A stretch of 64,000 nt of DNA, taken from Cohaesibacter gelatinilyticus. GTDB lineage: Bacteria; Pseudomonadota; Alphaproteobacteria; Rhizobiales; Cohaesibacteraceae. The stretch lies in the NCBI RefSeq assembly GCF_900215605.1, contig NZ_OBEL01000002.1, positions 62,001 through 126,000 of the forward strand, given 5' to 3'. The notes beneath the pieces are model-generated. The model was not told the DNA's origin. It ran no database searches and was given only the letters and a program-made list of their open reading frames with translations. Both the position numbers and the translations under genes were made by a program. Positions 53,273-59,379 of this stretch are shown one piece after another. Numbering within the stretch: position 1 is the first letter of the stretch; the number at the start of each line of letters is the position of its first letter.

Positions 53273-54913
53273 CTAACAAGCTGCTTGTGAAAAATCACGC
53301 AAATGATCATAGTCCAGCTTCAACAAACCCGAATTCCTCAAGGTGCGGTTTGGGTAGTTTATATTGGTCAAGAATTTTTCTATATTGAAACCTGGTTCAA
53401 GATAGAGCAACCGACTGGCAGCCCTATGAGCCTTCTCTGTTTCGCCAAAATAGGTGTAGAGGCTGATCATCTGCCTCAATGGCGGACGAAAACGGGGGGA
53501 CCGACGCGCAGCGGTTTCTGCCATTTTCAGAGCCTCTTCGTAGCGTTCGTTCGCGATGCAAGAAAGGCAATGATACAAATCCCACCAATGTCGAAAAGCG
53601 GAACCTTGGGCAATTTTGCGACTGCGGAGTGAATAATCATAAGCACTCTTGCTATCACCGCAAATCAACCGCGTTGCCGCCATGGCCTGCAACGCAAAGG
53701 CGTTGGAAGGGTTTTTCTCCAAAGCCGGTGTAGCAAGATCAATGGCATATTCTTCATCACCAAACAGCATGACTTGCACAAGCGCCAGCAGTGATAAAAC
53801 AACACTGTTATTGGTACCCTCATACAAGCATTGTTCAATCAATATCTGAGCCTGTCTTTGCAGCACGTTCACGTTCGGCTCAAACAGCTCAACCGCCTGA
53901 ACCGTGCGAATAAGTGCTTTCCAAGCAAGGAAAACCGGATTGGGTTCATTGCTATATGCCATATCCAAACTATGGTCAGCACTCAGCAGCGAAGCCCGAT
54001 CAAATCGAAATATATCCTGGATGGCATTATATTGATGATGTCGTGCTATCCGTCTCGGATCCTCGCCGGCCAAAGATTGTGCAGTTTTCTCCATCACCGC
54101 CTCAGCCGCATCAAAGCTCAGGCGCTGAAACTCCAAATCGGCATCAAGCGGCATCGTGCTTGCGAGCTTGATTGTGCCAGAATAGAGAAGCTGCTGGTTA
54201 TGGCAGGAAGCAATGTCCATAACCAGAAAATCATCATCTGTACCGCTGATAATGTTACAGGTCAGATCCAGATCTGCACGCCGCTTTGCAACCTTCTCGG
54301 TGCCGACAGATTTCGAGACGAGACATTCGGCCCCGACCGTCTCAATGATTGACTGTCCCAGTTGGAAAGAGGAATGGCGCGCAATCAAAAAGTTCTGTGA
54401 ATTCTCCTCAGCTTTAGCATACGGCAGGGCGTTACAACGAATGGTCAGAGGTTGGCGTGTTCCTGCAACGTCATGTGTCACAGGCCGTTTCACGGATCGA
54501 AAAAAGGACTGCATGTCCTGATGCCAGATTTGAAAGGCAGCATCAGGGATACACATGCCTTCCAGAAACTCCATGGACCCGTCCGAGGAAATATCCTCTA
54601 GGGACTGAATGTCAAAGACATCAGGTGCCAGCGCTACGGTTTGACGATTGGTATTAAGAAGAAGAGGTCCATCTGGTAGAATTTTGCGAATGGCCATAAG
54701 AGCTTGACGCAAACTGCCACTGGCTTGCTCGGGCGCGCGATCACTCCACAAATTTGCTTCCAGCCATCGTCGAGAACGCTCATGTGTGTTTGATGACGCC
54801 AGCATGGCCAGCAGCGCACAGGCGCGAATGCTGGATGGCGTGACATCCTGACCATCCTGCAAGAACACCTTAAAAGGCCCAAATAACTGCAATTTTACAA
54901 TTGATTGAGACAT
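53273..54913 (-). CDS. SARP/BTAD-like transcriptional regulator with TPR-like C terminus
   Basis: A 546-residue cytosolic regulator. Residues about 4-75 are an OmpR/SARP-type winged HTH (LQLFGPFKVFLQDGQDVTP, ACALLAMLASSNTHERSRRW, LRQALMAIRKIL). The rest has no catalytic motif. Its C-terminal 200 residues are helical repeats resembling TPRs (ALQAMAATRLICGDSKSAYD, RYEEALKMAETAARRSPRF, GETEKAHRAASRLLYLEPGF). No sensor or ATPase domain is seen. It is divergent from the haloperoxidase gene, 179 bases apart, so it probably controls that gene and perhaps the protease and DM13 genes beyond. Start chosen at ATG 54913. Confidence 0.78.
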   Translation of the reverse strand: MSQSIVKLQLFGPFKVFLQDGQDVTPSSIRACALLAMLASSNTHERSRRWLEANLWSDRAPEQASGSLRQALMAIRKILPDGPLLLNTNRQTVALAPDVFDIQSLEDISSDGSMEFLEGMCIPDAAFQIWHQDMQSFFRSVKRPVTHDVAGTRQPLTIRCNALPYAKAEENSQNFLIARHSSFQLGQSIIETVGAECLVSKSVGTEKVAKRRADLDLTCNIISGTDDDFLVMDIASCHNQQLLYSGTIKLASTMPLDADLEFQRLSFDAAEAVMEKTAQSLAGEDPRRIARHHQYNAIQDIFRFDRASLLSADHSLDMAYSNEPNPVFLAWKALIRTVQAVELFEPNVNVLQRQAQILIEQCLYEGTNNSVVLSLLALVQVMLFGDEEYAIDLATPALEKNPSNAFALQAMAATRLICGDSKSAYDYSLRSRKIAQGSAFRHWWDLYHCLSCIANERYEEALKMAETAARRSPRFRPPLRQMISLYTYFGETEKAHRAASRLLYLEPGFNIEKFLTNINYPNRTLRNSGLLKLDYDHLRDFSQAAC

Positions 54914-55092
54914 ACCCTCATCGCTCCCTTGTCCATGAAAACATACTTCCTGTCCAAAAAAAATGCTCGACATGGGGTCATTCGTGAATTTTTCGTGATT
55001 TCGCGCCTTTGAGGTCCTTCAAAAATTGACATCCGAAGCAATACCGAAAAATCATAGCTGGCAATTGTTTCCAGATTGAACAGGAGTGAAGC

Positions 55093-56235
55093 ATGACAAC
55101 AGAAGGCGGACATGGTGGGCATGGCGGCCATGGTGGACATGGCGGGCACGGAGGACATGGCGGGCACGGCGGACATGGTGGGCACGGCGGACATGGTGGG
55201 CATGGCGGCCACGGTGGGCATGGTGGGCACGGTGGACATGGCGGCCACGGAGAACACGCTGGAAGTGCAAGCTCCCCACTTCTGAATCTGGCACTTGCCA
55301 GCACTCGCGATGGCTTGCATCTTCACTGGGACAATGAAGTCCAGACGCCTGAGCCCAACCGTCAGGGTCGCAAAGCCTGGAGCGCATTTTCTACGATGGA
55401 TCGTCGTGAACGCAATGCTGTGTTGGACACAAGCTTGCTATCAAATATCGCCATCCATATCCCGAACAATGACAAGAAAGCCCAGAACTCAAGAAAAGTC
55501 CGCATTTTTGGAAAAACAGCTTTGACGCTCACTCGTCCAACCGTCAAGGAGTTCCGCGATCAGCTGGATAGAGTCATGAGTTCGGCCCACCTACGCATGG
55601 ATCGTCTCGAAGAGATCAATGTTCAAATTGGAGACATCACTTCCTTCTTCGGTAGCTTGATCTATTTGCAGGGCCACAGCACCAAATGGACACTGGAATT
55701 GATTGATGCTGTGCTCCGGCTTTGCTCCGCAATCGAATTTCCGCTTAAAATGCAATTTGATTGCCCTCGCCCGATCACGTTCGACAATCGCGTGCAACCT
55801 ATCATTCAAACTCCGACCCATGGCACCTGGCCAAGCGGCCATGCAACCGAAGCATTTGCATTGGCAACAGTTCTGTCCGCACTGACCGGCAATGAAGATT
55901 GGGTATCGGCCAAGGATGGCCTGTTCCGACTGGCCGGTCGCATAGCAGACAACCGAACTGTTGCAGGAGTACATTTCCCTACCGACAGTTATGCTGGTGC
56001 CTTTTTGGGTGTAACCATCGGTCAATATGTCGTGGCCTGTTGTACCGGAAAAGACGAAAGTCTGGAAAAGCGCAGTTATCAAATTGGTGACGAAAATTGG
56101 CAAGATTTCATCCCATCTGAAATCGCAACCTTGCTTGGAGACAATGCAAACAATTGGTCCGGTGAACTAGAAAAGGTTGATCCTGTCCTCGGTCAACTTT
56201 GGAAAAAAGCGAAACAGGAGACCGATCTTTCATAG
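55093..56235 (+). CDS. Vanadium haloperoxidase/PAP2-family enzyme with an N-terminal (GGH)16 array
   Basis: A 380-residue protein. Residues 5-52 are sixteen uninterrupted GGH tripeptides, followed by GEH. The catalytic domain has all vanadate/phosphate-binding motifs of the vanadium haloperoxidase-acid phosphatase superfamily: K219-x6-R226-P227, PSGH at 247-250 and R288-x5-H294-x3-D298. It could be a haloperoxidase or a phosphatase; the spacing and soluble helical build (no membrane helices seen) favour the haloperoxidase group. No signal peptide is visible, unless export uses another route. The His array would chelate Ni, Cu, Zn or vanadyl; this is inference. Codons in the array vary (GGN CAY), so the protein repeat, not only DNA slippage, seems to be maintained. 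Confidence 0.85.
   Translation: MTTEGGHGGHGGHGGHGGHGGHGGHGGHGGHGGHGGHGGHGGHGGHGGHGGHGEHAGSASSPLLNLALASTRDGLHLHWDNEVQTPEPNRQGRKAWSAFSTMDRRERNAVLDTSLLSNIAIHIPNNDKKAQNSRKVRIFGKTALTLTRPTVKEFRDQLDRVMSSAHLRMDRLEEINVQIGDITSFFGSLIYLQGHSTKWTLELIDAVLRLCSAIEFPLKMQFDCPRPITFDNRVQPIIQTPTHGTWPSGHATEAFALATVLSALTGNEDWVSAKDGLFRLAGRIADNRTVAGVHFPTDSYAGAFLGVTIGQYVVACCTGKDESLEKRSYQIGDENWQDFIPSEIATLLGDNANNWSGELEKVDPVLGQLWKKAKQETDLS
55105..55248 (+). repeat. Tandem 9-base repeat encoding GGH, sixteen copies
   Basis: Sixteen in-frame units of GGN-GGN-CAY, 144 bases in all. The third positions differ from unit to unit, chiefly GGC/GGT/GGA/GGG and CAT/CAC. The unit number is likely to vary between strains by slippage. 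Confidence 0.95.
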
Positions 56236-56257
56236 ATCACGAGGAGGTCCCTGCCAG

Positions 56258-56320
56258 AATGGTTTTGGGCGCGCAATTCTTTGATTGCAGCTCCGCTGCA
56301 TGGCGCAGTCCAAAACCATT
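56258..56320. repeat. Inverted repeat downstream of the haloperoxidase gene
   Basis: AATGGTTTTGG (56258-56268) and CCAAAACCATT (56310-56320) are perfect inverted arms, with a small GCAGC/GCTGC hairpin in the loop. It starts 22 bases after the haloperoxidase stop and may be a terminator or a small palindromic repeat. Confidence 0.6.
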
Positions 56321-56351
56321 TTGTGCAGCTTTCAGATTGCCCCAAATAGTA

Positions 56352-56383
56352 GAAGCCCGGTTCGGAGGTCCGAACCGGGCTTC
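56352..56383. terminator. Strong hairpin between the convergent haloperoxidase and protease genes
   Basis: A 14-bp perfect stem (GAAGCCCGGTTCGG/CCGAACCGGGCTTC) with an AGGT loop. T-tracts are short, but it sits between two convergent genes and is the best terminator candidate for both. Confidence 0.7.
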
Positions 56384-56631
56384 ATCTTGCGTGCATGATT
56401 TCTTCGCTCACCAACAGCTCAATCATCTTGTGAAGCAGCTATAATGTTGCCATTACCCACTTCATTTTGCCAGCCAGCAGAAGATCCCGCATCTCGATCA
56501 ACTGCCAGGCACGCAAGGGGAGGACTCGGGTTCAAATATTCAAGATGCACCACATAGTCGCAATTGCCCTCCCCAATTCCCGTACATTTCTATTTCAACT
56601 GAATACATGCCATTCAAAAATCATGGCATTT
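56384..56631. other. Gene-free stretch downstream of the subtilase gene
   Basis: About 250 bases before the subtilase stop (which lies at 56632 on the minus strand). There is a GGGTTCAAAT string at 56527, but no tRNA stem pairs around it. I see no gene, promoter or strong structure. Confidence 0.4.
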
Positions 56632-58770
56632 CTAAAAACGATCTTCGCCCGGCTCCAATGGGTAGCGGGTATCAATCACGACATCTCCCAGTCGCGAAAC
56701 ATCATCTTCGGGAATGTTAGAAACATCGGGTTGTTCACCGTTAATCTCAGTGAGAGCCAGATTGCGAGCCTCCAAAGGAGCGGCCGCACTGGTTCCACTC
56801 AAACGAGACATGGACCCGCTGAGAGTTCCACAGGCCAATTTTCCAGCATGCACATCCTGGCGTTCTATTAAATGTGACCGCTTTGGTTGCTCACCAGACC
56901 AATCAGCCCCTTCCGAGCTATAGCCAGCAGGCAGATATTCATGCTTCTCACCCAACATGGCAGCGCCAACGCTAAAGATGCTATCCCCCAGTCCACCAGG
57001 CAATAAATGTGCAGTACTCAAAGCGCTATTGGTCCCCTTGTGAGTGATTGCTCCATCATCGGACAAACCGGAAAAATCTCTATTCCGCTGATCCCATTGA
57101 TGCGAGTTGAAATTGTCAAAGTAGGATTGGCGACCGCCTTTGATATAGCCAGGGGCCGTATCACCCCGTTGAATTTGCAGAACAAATTCACGAGAGCCTG
57201 ATACATCAATAATATCAAGTTTATAGGCTCCAGATGGTGCCATAACGCCACCCTCAATGCGATCCGCTGTCGGAGCCATGGCACACACCAGCATCGCTGG
57301 CTGCGTAACGCCTTTCTCAAAAGCTCTGGGTGGTACATGATAGAGCCTTCCGATAACGCACTCGTCATACTTGAGATCGGCATGGGTGCCCTGCTCTGGT
57401 GGAGCGCCCTCATAGACAATCTCGCCATTTGGCATTTTCAACACCATCAATGTGGTCGAAAGCAACTCGCTGTCGAAGGTTCTGGATGCGACGCCCCTGT
57501 GAACCGGACGAGAGCGGATTTCCAGATAACTGGTAGTGGGATCGTCGGGTTGCAGGACCCACTCCAGCAGATTGGGCAATGCCCCGAGAGGTTCTCCATG
57601 GCACAGCGTTGCAACCTGCTGAGATTCATATCTGTTTCCATACGGGAAAATGATATGGGTCCTGCGCCCCGTTGCCTTCCGCCACCTTTCGACAGTTTCT
57701 GCCAACGCATATTCCACAAAATGACTGCCATTTTTCGGGCCTGCCAAAAATCCCATGGACACTGTGATGATCAATGGCTCCTTCCCGCCATCAATCAAGT
57801 GAGCACGCGCCAAAATCCATCTTGCAGCCATCACCAGATAGGGGGCAAAACGCACTCCGGAGGTATCCTCCACCGTTTCTGGCGGCAATTGAACACCAAG
57901 CAATTTGAGGGTGTCCACCGGATCTCCCCTCTTTCCGAACGCCAGATCAGCTACCATTGTTCCATGACTGGATGCATAGGACAGGCTCTGATGCGCCTCC
58001 GTCCCAACAATATCTTCCATCAGCAACCGATAGATATCATCTTCCCGCTCACCCGCAGCAACCTGCCTGAGAAACGCGCCCAGGTCCTCATTCTCGAAAA
58101 CACGACCGAGATGCACGCTGGAGATACTTTTCGAGGGCTTTTCAATCGCCTGCATCCAGAAGGACGCAAAGCGTGATTTCTCCTGATGTTCAGTAAAGGA
58201 CTTGTTCAGAAATCCAATTCCATCATCAATGATTGCCATGATGGGGCCTGAATTATCGGCAAAGCCATGTTCAAGATCGATTGCATGCACCTCACCACTC
58301 ATTGGAACGGCAAGACCGATATCCAGAATTTCAAAATGCTTGCTAAAGGACTTGATGCCCGTTTTGAGCAATCGTTCAACTTTGGAACTGGCCATGTAAA
58401 CATACATCGCCGTTGGACGAAATTGCTCTGGAGCCTTGGAGGCTTGAGCACTCCACTCAACGTGAATAGCCACCGCTTCATGCAGATCAAGCACGATAAC
58501 CGGATCAGATGTGCTATCCCCTTCCTCCACCAGTAGCTGAGAGATCCGAGAAGCGAGCTTCTGACGCAAACCGTCATGGGCCCTTGCTTGATCGGAATCA
58601 ACTTTCAACAGATCGGATCGCTCAAAGAATTCATGTTTTTCTCTAATAAAAACGGGGTGATATAGATTTTCACCCGCTGTCGTCATGCGGTCAGATGCAA
58701 CCTGCATAGCCCAATCGATATAGGGAGAAAGCAAAGCTGCTGAATTTTTATTTTTTTCCTGATCTGACAT
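56632..58770 (-). CDS. Subtilisin-like (S8) serine protease with large inserts
   Basis: A 712-residue protease. The ATG at 58770 (MSDQEKNK) follows AAGGAGGG. The catalytic triad is visible: Asp182 in MAIIDDGIGF, His269 in SSHGTMVADL and Ser661 in LSGTSAAAP. About 390 residues lie between the His and Ser, far more than the roughly 150 of minimal subtilases, so extra domains are inserted there. The first 165 residues form an N-terminal domain without a signal peptide. It is convergent with the haloperoxidase gene and divergent from the DM13 gene. The target is unknown; a role in processing its neighbours' products is conceivable. Confidence 0.85.
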   Translation of the reverse strand: MSDQEKNKNSAALLSPYIDWAMQVASDRMTTAGENLYHPVFIREKHEFFERSDLLKVDSDQARAHDGLRQKLASRISQLLVEEGDSTSDPVIVLDLHEAVAIHVEWSAQASKAPEQFRPTAMYVYMASSKVERLLKTGIKSFSKHFEILDIGLAVPMSGEVHAIDLEHGFADNSGPIMAIIDDGIGFLNKSFTEHQEKSRFASFWMQAIEKPSKSISSVHLGRVFENEDLGAFLRQVAAGEREDDIYRLLMEDIVGTEAHQSLSYASSHGTMVADLAFGKRGDPVDTLKLLGVQLPPETVEDTSGVRFAPYLVMAARWILARAHLIDGGKEPLIITVSMGFLAGPKNGSHFVEYALAETVERWRKATGRRTHIIFPYGNRYESQQVATLCHGEPLGALPNLLEWVLQPDDPTTSYLEIRSRPVHRGVASRTFDSELLSTTLMVLKMPNGEIVYEGAPPEQGTHADLKYDECVIGRLYHVPPRAFEKGVTQPAMLVCAMAPTADRIEGGVMAPSGAYKLDIIDVSGSREFVLQIQRGDTAPGYIKGGRQSYFDNFNSHQWDQRNRDFSGLSDDGAITHKGTNSALSTAHLLPGGLGDSIFSVGAAMLGEKHEYLPAGYSSEGADWSGEQPKRSHLIERQDVHAGKLACGTLSGSMSRLSGTSAAAPLEARNLALTEINGEQPDVSNIPEDDVSRLGDVVIDTRYPLEPGEDRF

Positions 58771-58956
58771 GAACACCCTCCTTGCCGACGACAGGTTCCA
58801 AGATTGCCGGGTGCTTCTGGACAGGTCAAACAAATCGGGCATCGAGGGTCAACTATTCGCGGAAGATTCACGCTACTCACATTTTAATTGGTGCAAGATA
58901 GCAGTGTTCGTCTGATTTGAAGCGCACCCCACCAAGACGGGAGAAGACAATAATTG

Positions 58957-59379
58957 ATGTGCAGGTTTAAGCAGCTTGCTGGCGGCACCTTCTACAGCAA
59001 AAACGAGTCTCAATTGACTGGCAATTTCAGATTCGTTCAGGAGGATGGCAAAATCTGGCTGGAAACATCCGATAATTTCAGGTTTTCCGGTTCCCCTTCC
59101 CCCGGCTGGGTTCTGATGGCCTATCAAAAGAATGACAGCCGACCCAATATCTTTGATGCAGCCATGCATAATAGGATTTGTGCGATCTTGCCACCGTCAC
59201 GTAAACCTTATTCTCAGTTGAACGGTCAACACCGTTTCGCAATACCGGAGCATCTTTGCATTTCCGAGTTCAACTGCCTGATTGCATGGTGTTACGGGCG
59301 CCCGGAACTATTGGGTCTCGGCATGTTTGGCGATCCATCTACGGCTGAAGCACAAATAGAAATATGCCAACAATTCTAA
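58957..59379 (+). CDS. DM13-domain protein (putative electron-transfer domain)
   Basis: A 140-residue protein consisting almost wholly of one DM13 domain. The sequence begins AGGTFYSKNESQLTGNFRF, then LETSDNFRFSGSPSPGWVLMAY, and ends with a Cys in NCLIAWCYGRPELLGLGMF, the order of conserved blocks in the family. DM13 domains were proposed to mediate electron transfer or hydroxylation-type redox reactions through a conserved Cys; experimental proof is thin. No signal peptide or membrane helix is seen, which is unusual as DM13 proteins are commonly exported. It is divergent from the subtilase gene, 186 bases apart. Confidence 0.75.
   Translation: MCRFKQLAGGTFYSKNESQLTGNFRFVQEDGKIWLETSDNFRFSGSPSPGWVLMAYQKNDSRPNIFDAAMHNRICAILPPSRKPYSQLNGQHRFAIPEHLCISEFNCLIAWCYGRPELLGLGMFGDPSTAEAQIEICQQF

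Follow-up and report, generated by a model that had tools for sequence, protein, structure and literature searches.

Peptide signalling through cytoplasmic receptors built of tetratricopeptide repeats (TPR) is described mainly for Bacillota in the portion of PMC10075063 that we draw on, and the same portion presents the RRNPP systems as two adjacent genes, for a propeptide and its receptor, in Firmicutes and their mobile elements. RRNPP(A) propeptides such as those of Rap-Phr sometimes contain one to four copies of the pheromone, and the pheromones are cut by proteases (relevant part of PMC11343458). Here we analysed a 64,000-nucleotide stretch of the genome of Cohaesibacter gelatinilyticus (contig NZ_OBEL01000002.1, positions 62,001 to 126,000; hereafter the window), which encodes a TPR sensor, a soluble enzyme of the PAP2 fold and a protease side by side. 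These three genes are the core of a module. The enzyme carries in front of its domain an array of one short unit, repeated perfectly and different in different lineages. The combination of a repeat-tailed PAP2 protein, a protease and a sensor suggests an undescribed peptide-producing or peptide-signalling system.

The block in the window consists of the following features:
53273..54973, minus strand: sensor/regulator (REG below) with an N-terminal, putatively SARP-type winged helix and a TPR-like C-terminus, 566 amino acids (aa)
55093..56235, plus strand: soluble PAP2-fold enzyme, acid-phosphatase-like, with the tripeptide array in front, 380 aa; PF01569
55105..55248, plus strand: the array, 16 perfect Gly-Gly-His copies of 9 bp each with scrambled codons; low model confidence, probably disordered
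56632..58842, minus strand: subtilase of Csp-like predicted fold, 736 aa; invariant catalytic residues, fold matches in the PDB
58954..59379, plus strand: DM13-like accessory protein, 141 aa; sub-threshold Pfam match

The original prediction, made from the sequence alone, had seen four adjacent open reading frames arranged as two divergent pairs and lacking signal peptides. The coordinates confirm the arrangement, in which the enzyme and subtilase genes are convergent, and no signal peptide was evident on the four proteins when judged by eye rather than by a program.

The GGH repeat was a mere label in that prediction and is the most unusual feature of the block. The window enzyme starts with MTTE, followed by the 16 perfect GGH copies. 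We counted 49 PAP2 loci, namely the window, its Cohaesibacter relatives L007 and L008, 32 loci from the subtilase and plasmid searches, and L103-L116; together with five genes from one genus they give 54 PAP2 genes, which are related to each other. At least five perfect copies of a unit of two to four residues preceded the enzyme domain in all 54. None of the 557 other frames in the same loci carried such an array; these controls were the longest open frames without mutual overlap, from 150 aa upwards, and probably include some that are not genes. When all frames of at least 60 aa were considered, the runs outside the arrays were one of GI in 5.5 copies, in an L070 frame that overlaps with a longer frame, and others of 4-4.5 copies, in L066, L068 and L070. 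The searches used the subtilase or an array-free PAP2 domain, and no gene was found through its array.

The 54 genes carry 32 different units, 25 of them with glycine, in arrays of 5-17 copies. The units of other modules include GGI, GSF, NSF, GGE, NGA, GGF, GAR, GSL, MHG, AGM and GGV, as well as LNG, ADN, SGV, AEN, TAM, GNQ, SGGA, GGGH, QTQ and NK. Their chemistry spans nine copies of GGE to eleven of AGR, with nothing evidently shared, and a collagen-like array as the general rule was rejected since 7 of the 32 units lack glycine. By eye, the array mostly starts about 3-25 residues from a plausible start. Plasmid stretches added SGH (L127, where odd copies limit the longest perfect run to four), NR in 13 copies (L149), GGL (L152) and again GGH (Rhizobium L130, L150 and L151). 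The PAP2 proteins of these three Rhizobium loci are about 44% identical to that of the window over about 55% of it; GGH in both would mean either repeated origin or long retention. In L144 (G280) the unit is the five-residue GGNWF in three perfect copies, beside a REG that is cyclase-type by eye and with a subtilase-like frame downstream, also read by eye. The NR-array gene of L149 (Palleronia plasmid pTHAF1_a) has a subtilase, a heme peroxidase and a C1 peptidase as neighbours. The minus-strand open frames facing the GGH array in the window (55052-55387), with repeats of Pro-Cys and of His, are its by-products.

The copies are identical as protein and scrambled as DNA. In 35 arrays, codon positions 1 and 2 were almost constant among copies, and third positions differed in 36-76% of comparisons. 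Differences at positions 1 or 2 were seen in three arrays only (L049, L063 and L067), in which one residue is encoded by codons of either family (Arg or Ser, and probably Leu). The frequency of codon differences within arrays was 0.632, against 0.587 expected from the codon usage of the locus, and 37 of the 54 arrays reached their own expectation. Adjacent copies differed at 1021 of 1434 codons compared with 898 ± 15 after permutation, a value that none of 1000 permutations reached, and copies two apart were more alike than permuted ones (743 of 1271 differing vs 797 ± 14). A reduced set without seven close relatives (L008, L044, L065, L068, L119, L120 and L121) gave the same result for adjacent copies (883 of 1257 vs 781 ± 15). 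Whole adjacent units that were identical were not clearly rarer than after permutation (32 vs 37.7 ± 4.8). Thus, either identity between neighbours is selected against, or two-unit blocks are duplicated, or both. Judged by its codons, the array is constrained at the protein level.

We considered whether the array could be a neutral minisatellite, produced by slippage at the gene start and without function. This would account for the copy number, which is 5, 6 or 7 in close Phaeobacter strains, and the sharing of codons between copies two apart is what duplication of two-unit blocks would give. However, the differences are almost only synonymous, adjacent codons differ far more often than permuted ones, and the array is found in every one of the 54 genes, which makes a neutral origin scarcely credible. 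Slippage alone was rejected on the ground that the copies are perfect as protein and scrambled in their codons.

To follow the change of the unit, we used a tree of the 54 domains with the array excluded. Support is good for 22 of its 51 inner branches, and two of its end branches are very long. The fewest unit changes on this tree were 35. Since the floor for 32 units is 31, shared units have mostly been kept by descent. One genus carries the gene in 7/7 genomes, with the unit TGV in two, AGV in two and SGV in three. The domains are 98% identical in the TGV pair, 91% in the AGV pair, 78-87% in the SGV trio and 67-73% between groups. The arrays of this genus are uniform apart from that of L119, where AGV appears once among the TGV copies. 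Three genomes that we read carry two modules each (L055/L056, L069/L071 and L103/L104), and the units differ within each pair.

Such a pattern could also come from a self-association tail, whose identical copies would pack and so gather the enzyme and its partners; uniformity would then serve packing and the unit would be free to drift. The arrays are indeed uniform within a gene and different between species, and the prevalence of glycine in the units would suit it. On the other hand, strongly like-charged arrays (GGE in nine copies, GAR in eight, AGR in eleven) stand next to GGI, TAM and NK with no evident packing chemistry in common, and the protease partner is left without explanation. We regard this explanation as quite unlikely.

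The core genes were found together by profile searches: a REG homologue is present at 49/49 PAP2 loci, upstream of the PAP2 gene in 48/49, and a protease is present at 49/49. With the subtilase profile, matches came from 23 of the 397 genomes of the order sample and from 7 of the 385 of the class sample, the source genome being counted in both. We read 34 stretches, comprising all 28 order and class matches outside Cohaesibacter and 6 of 33 matching plasmid records, and a PAP2 gene lay near the subtilase in 32; the two misses (L054 and L060) are at contig ends. The search with the PAP2 domain gave 43 matches in 38 of the 398 genomes of the phylum sample. Nine of these fell in the window or in loci that had been read before, 14 corresponded to L103-L116, which were fully read and all have REG, one was L144, eight were short stretches, and 11 were weak and unread. 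Among 15 further, weaker PAP2 matches, the array was present in seven (by eye in L097, the locus of L144). The eight array-less ones had no REG within the short stretches available (about 1.5 kb on each side), and several have an N-terminus that looks by eye like a signal peptide.

The module also occurs on plasmids, including those of the tractable strains Phaeobacter inhibens (unit NSF) and Rhizobium johnstonii 3841 (unit NK). Two overlapping searches matched 33 and 104 plasmid records. We read 23 plasmid stretches (L039-L044, L122-L130 and L145-L152), of which only L039-L044 are within the 49 loci and 54 genes, and the array was present in all 23. On the Parasedimentitalea plasmid pW43B (L128), the PAP2 and subtilase genes are split into several frames and REG is open.

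The original prediction had proposed that the four genes form one unit, to be doubted if homologues were mostly found apart. Regulator, enzyme and subtilase were found together across loci, so for these three the proposal stood. For the DM13 gene it was not supported: besides the window, this gene turned up in 3 of the 49 loci (L007, L008 and L049, in the last at a distance of about 2.5 kb from REG) and was matched more weakly in L108, and for this rarity we rejected it as a core part. Chance neighbourhood was rejected in view of the gene order kept in L007 and L008 and the core genes at 49/49 loci.

REG had been called SARP-like, and it has matches to AfsR (E 0.0019 for the PDB chain; E 0.00035 for the NCBIfam AfsR model, far under the cut-off of that model). 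There is no Pfam BTAD match in the window protein. Its TPRs are sub-threshold in Pfam, the best at E 0.0019. We scanned ten REGs and found TPR matches at E ≤ 0.01 in nine, several of them under Pfam cut-offs, and none in that of L007. Throughout the 49 loci the C-terminus is TPR-like, while the N-terminal output falls into three types, assigned via seed groups picked by eye: SARP-like (29 loci), class III cyclase (14) and OmpR-like (6). Pfam backs the output type in five of the ten scanned REGs, with Trans_reg_C matches for L043 and L069 and cyclase matches for L048, L064 and L114. No Pfam match at E ≤ 0.01 supports the cyclase label of L105. As far as these assignments go, the output domain of REG is exchangeable between SARP, OmpR-like and class III cyclase types.

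The window enzyme is a PAP2 protein (PF01569, E 2.3e-12). The pocket residues K219, R226-P227, H250, R288 and H294 are invariant in 29 alignment rows and form the vanadate-pocket pattern (K, RP, H of PSGH, R and H of RX5H), with PSAH or PMGH in some rows. Acid phosphatases and vanadium haloperoxidases both have this pocket. The structure model has a mean pLDDT of 75, below 50 for residues 1-57 and mostly above 85 in the core; the alignments behind this model and that of the subtilase are shallow (29 and 28 rows, respectively). All 24 fold matches in the PDB at E ≤ 0.001 are class A acid phosphatases, and haloperoxidases are thus not the nearest fold relatives. A transmembrane-like segment is absent from the window enzyme and from 45 of the 54 PAP2 domains by a crude hydropathy measure.

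The original prediction had taken the enzyme for a vanadium haloperoxidase with halogenating or redox chemistry. In its fuller form this idea makes the vanadium enzyme halogenate or oxidise, with DM13 as an electron-transfer partner. The enzyme does have the pocket residues that vanadium enzymes share, and there are weak matches to the bromoperoxidase 1qi9 by sequence (E 2.8e-4) and to the vanadium iodoperoxidase 4usz by fold (rank 30, E 7.9e-3). The query-normalised TM-score is 0.36 for 4usz against 0.40 for 7f17, the best match, which is a small difference. However, acid phosphatases match better both by sequence (7f17, E 2.5e-9) and by fold, and DM13 is rare among the loci. Since the pocket is common to both families and the model is best matched by acid phosphatases, the haloperoxidase label is not supported, and we consider a halogenating or redox unit very improbable.

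In the window both the subtilase and the DM13 protein stay under the Pfam cut-off (E 0.017 and E 0.16, respectively), yet the catalytic residues D206, H293, N403 and S685 of the subtilase are invariant in 34 rows, and the DM13 homologue in L049 passes the cut-off with 27 vs 25 bits. The model of the subtilase (mean pLDDT 74) has CspB, CspA and CspC as its best PDB matches, with 4i0w at E 5.8e-15, so that a Csp-type fold is predicted together with the catalytic residues. This subtilase family is present in 44 of the 49 loci. L113, L115 and L116 have other subtilases (PF00082; E 7.9e-13, 4.1e-20 and 3.3e-21), and L112 and L114 have a peptidase of the A4/G1 family instead (PF01828; E 1.3e-27 and 3.3e-23). 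An exchange of this kind, between unrelated proteases, is consistent with a required cleavage.

Cleavage could also serve to control a phosphatase. The array and linker would then be an inhibitory or locating tail which the protease removes, much as CspB activates pro-SleC. This would switch on a cytoplasmic phosphatase as part of a response to stress or in defence, with REG as the sensor. The Csp-like subtilase model, the intact PAP2 pocket, the constant presence of a protease and the low-confidence array all agree with this. However, neither the 5-17 identical copies nor the wholesale change of the unit from one related species to another would be required of a removable tail. No defence family was matched either: none of the four window proteins matched a PADLOC model at E ≤ 1; the original prediction had thought a defence role possible. 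Proteolytic control of the phosphatase is unlikely in our judgement.

In Rhizobium johnstonii 3841 (plasmid pRL12) and two relatives (L145-L147), REG, an NK-array PAP2 protein, the subtilase, an HExxH protein and a ThiF protein are encoded in this order. The HExxH protein of these operons is annotated as a 'putative peptide modification protein'. Its domain is the alpha-ketoglutarate peptide beta-hydroxylase domain of NCBIfam (TIGR04267), with E 1.7e-21 and above the cut-off in L145 and E 2.2e-09, just under it, in L115. The L145 subtilase has a weak match to PatA, the cyanobactin protease (E 4.4e-05, far under the cut-off), and a mycosin match that is also far under the cut-off. The HExxH and ThiF genes, seen in this branch, give the strongest hint that the array may be a peptide substrate.

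Since the unit is uniform within a gene and variable between lineages, and since a protease and a TPR sensor stand at every counted locus, a multi-copy peptide precursor fits best. We tentatively propose that the three genes form a conserved module whose array supplies one short peptide in many copies and is cut by the neighbouring protease, and we give this proposal somewhat less than an even chance. From the sequences we infer that the array would be disordered and exposed, and that the neighbouring protease would cut it into identical short peptides. The released peptides would be a product or a signal, possibly modified; in the rhizobial branch, the HExxH homologue and the ThiF protein of the operon would do this. 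The TPR sensor would control or read the system, and the PAP2 domain would be the carrier or the modifier of the peptide. Each copy would have to yield the same product, which would keep the unit uniform within a gene, and the product would differ among lineages. A bolder version is doubtful, namely a lineage-coded peptide system of Pseudomonadota: a word repeated 5-17 times ahead of the phosphatase fold would be freed by the protease and read by the TPR sensor via exchangeable outputs, and the words, uniform within a gene, would drift between species as mutually private signals or products.

Several points weigh against the peptide-source proposal. Two or three residues make a very short peptide to be recognised specifically. 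The partners of TPR proteins are often proteins rather than peptides, and TPR regulators and cyclases are common in such genomes. PAP2 phosphatases are not known to modify peptides. The array of the NK/NR branch is preceded by some 75-100 residues and is thus not at the very N-terminus, and in L113 the subtilase adjoins REG and not the PAP2 gene. HExxH and ThiF proteins were seen only in the NK branch (L115 and L145-L147) and were not searched for in other loci; the annotated neighbourhoods of the other plasmid records list neither. No recurrent export or uptake gene was found among the neighbours, which were clustered only, without a scan against a family library. The 1697 flanking frames clustered, with close duplicates merged or left out, appeared by eye to be mostly transporter-like or spurious, plus a DM13-like group.

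The surroundings of the block in the window are ordinary: to its left lie genes for a MocR-type regulator and a TRAP transporter, and to its right an FCD regulator and TRAP genes. The closest named relatives are Cohaesibacter metagenome-assembled genomes. In the family sample of 20 genomes, the subtilase was found in three and the enzyme in those same three. L007 and L008 have all four genes with order and relative strands kept, at 60-66% identity. Their FCD and TRAP neighbours are 82-94% identical to those of the window, and relative to these neighbours the four-gene block is inverted between L007/L008 and the window. SbcCD adjoins the block in L007 and is about 12 kb distant in the window. 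A search for the empty site found the FCD homologue in 8 of the 20 family genomes, five of them without the module; these five defined no empty-site junctions, and the same TRAP genes lie alongside FCD in two of the five. A phage origin was rejected since no PAP2 match was found in the phage collection.

In open PubMed Central (PMC) text, the scope of our literature search, which does not extend to subscription papers, we found no title or abstract on this gene combination or on lineage-specific tripeptide arrays of PAP2 proteins. If our proposal is true, Pseudomonadota would have a protease-sensor-peptide module of their own, and with it bacterial communication or peptide chemistry would gain a new branch. 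The arrays are also a natural case of a repeat that is protein-identical with scrambled DNA, which makes repeat stability and concerted change testable.

Among known systems, the class A acid phosphatases PhoC and PhoN give the best fold matches to the enzyme and share its active-site residues. They are exported and have no array, whereas here an array precedes the domain. The Csp germination subtilases of Clostridium resemble the protease as its best fold matches over 517-714 alignment columns with intact catalytic residues, but at 11-14% identity and with different neighbours. Their role is spore germination via SleC cleavage, and we know of no SleC-like substrate or spores, and expect none, in the hosts studied here. 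A parallel in design is found in ribosomally synthesised and post-translationally modified peptides (RiPPs). BURP-domain cyclases and borosins are multi-core RiPP precursors with repeated cores and an enzyme in one chain, processed by proteases. The module has a protease at every counted locus. It differs in having a PAP2 fold in place of a cyclase or methyltransferase, in placing the putative core before the enzyme and in the very short length of these cores, which have no spacers, and modification genes were seen here only in the rhizobial branch.

Of the published ideas that we found, the nearest is the tandem pheromone propeptide of Rap-Phr, with its one to four copies, as given in the relevant part of PMC11343458. 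The systems of the RRNPP(A) group (Rap-Phr, PlcR-PapR), as portrayed in the portions of the literature cited above, place a TPR receptor beside a peptide source. The present module likewise has REG beside the array gene at all 49 loci, where the array would be that source. It differs from them in its host phylum, Pseudomonadota, in showing no export signal evident by eye, and in its units of 2-5 residues, with 5-17 copies in the 54 genes. Where those systems have a lone small secreted propeptide, here the array shares one chain with a PAP2 enzyme and is accompanied by a dedicated protease gene.

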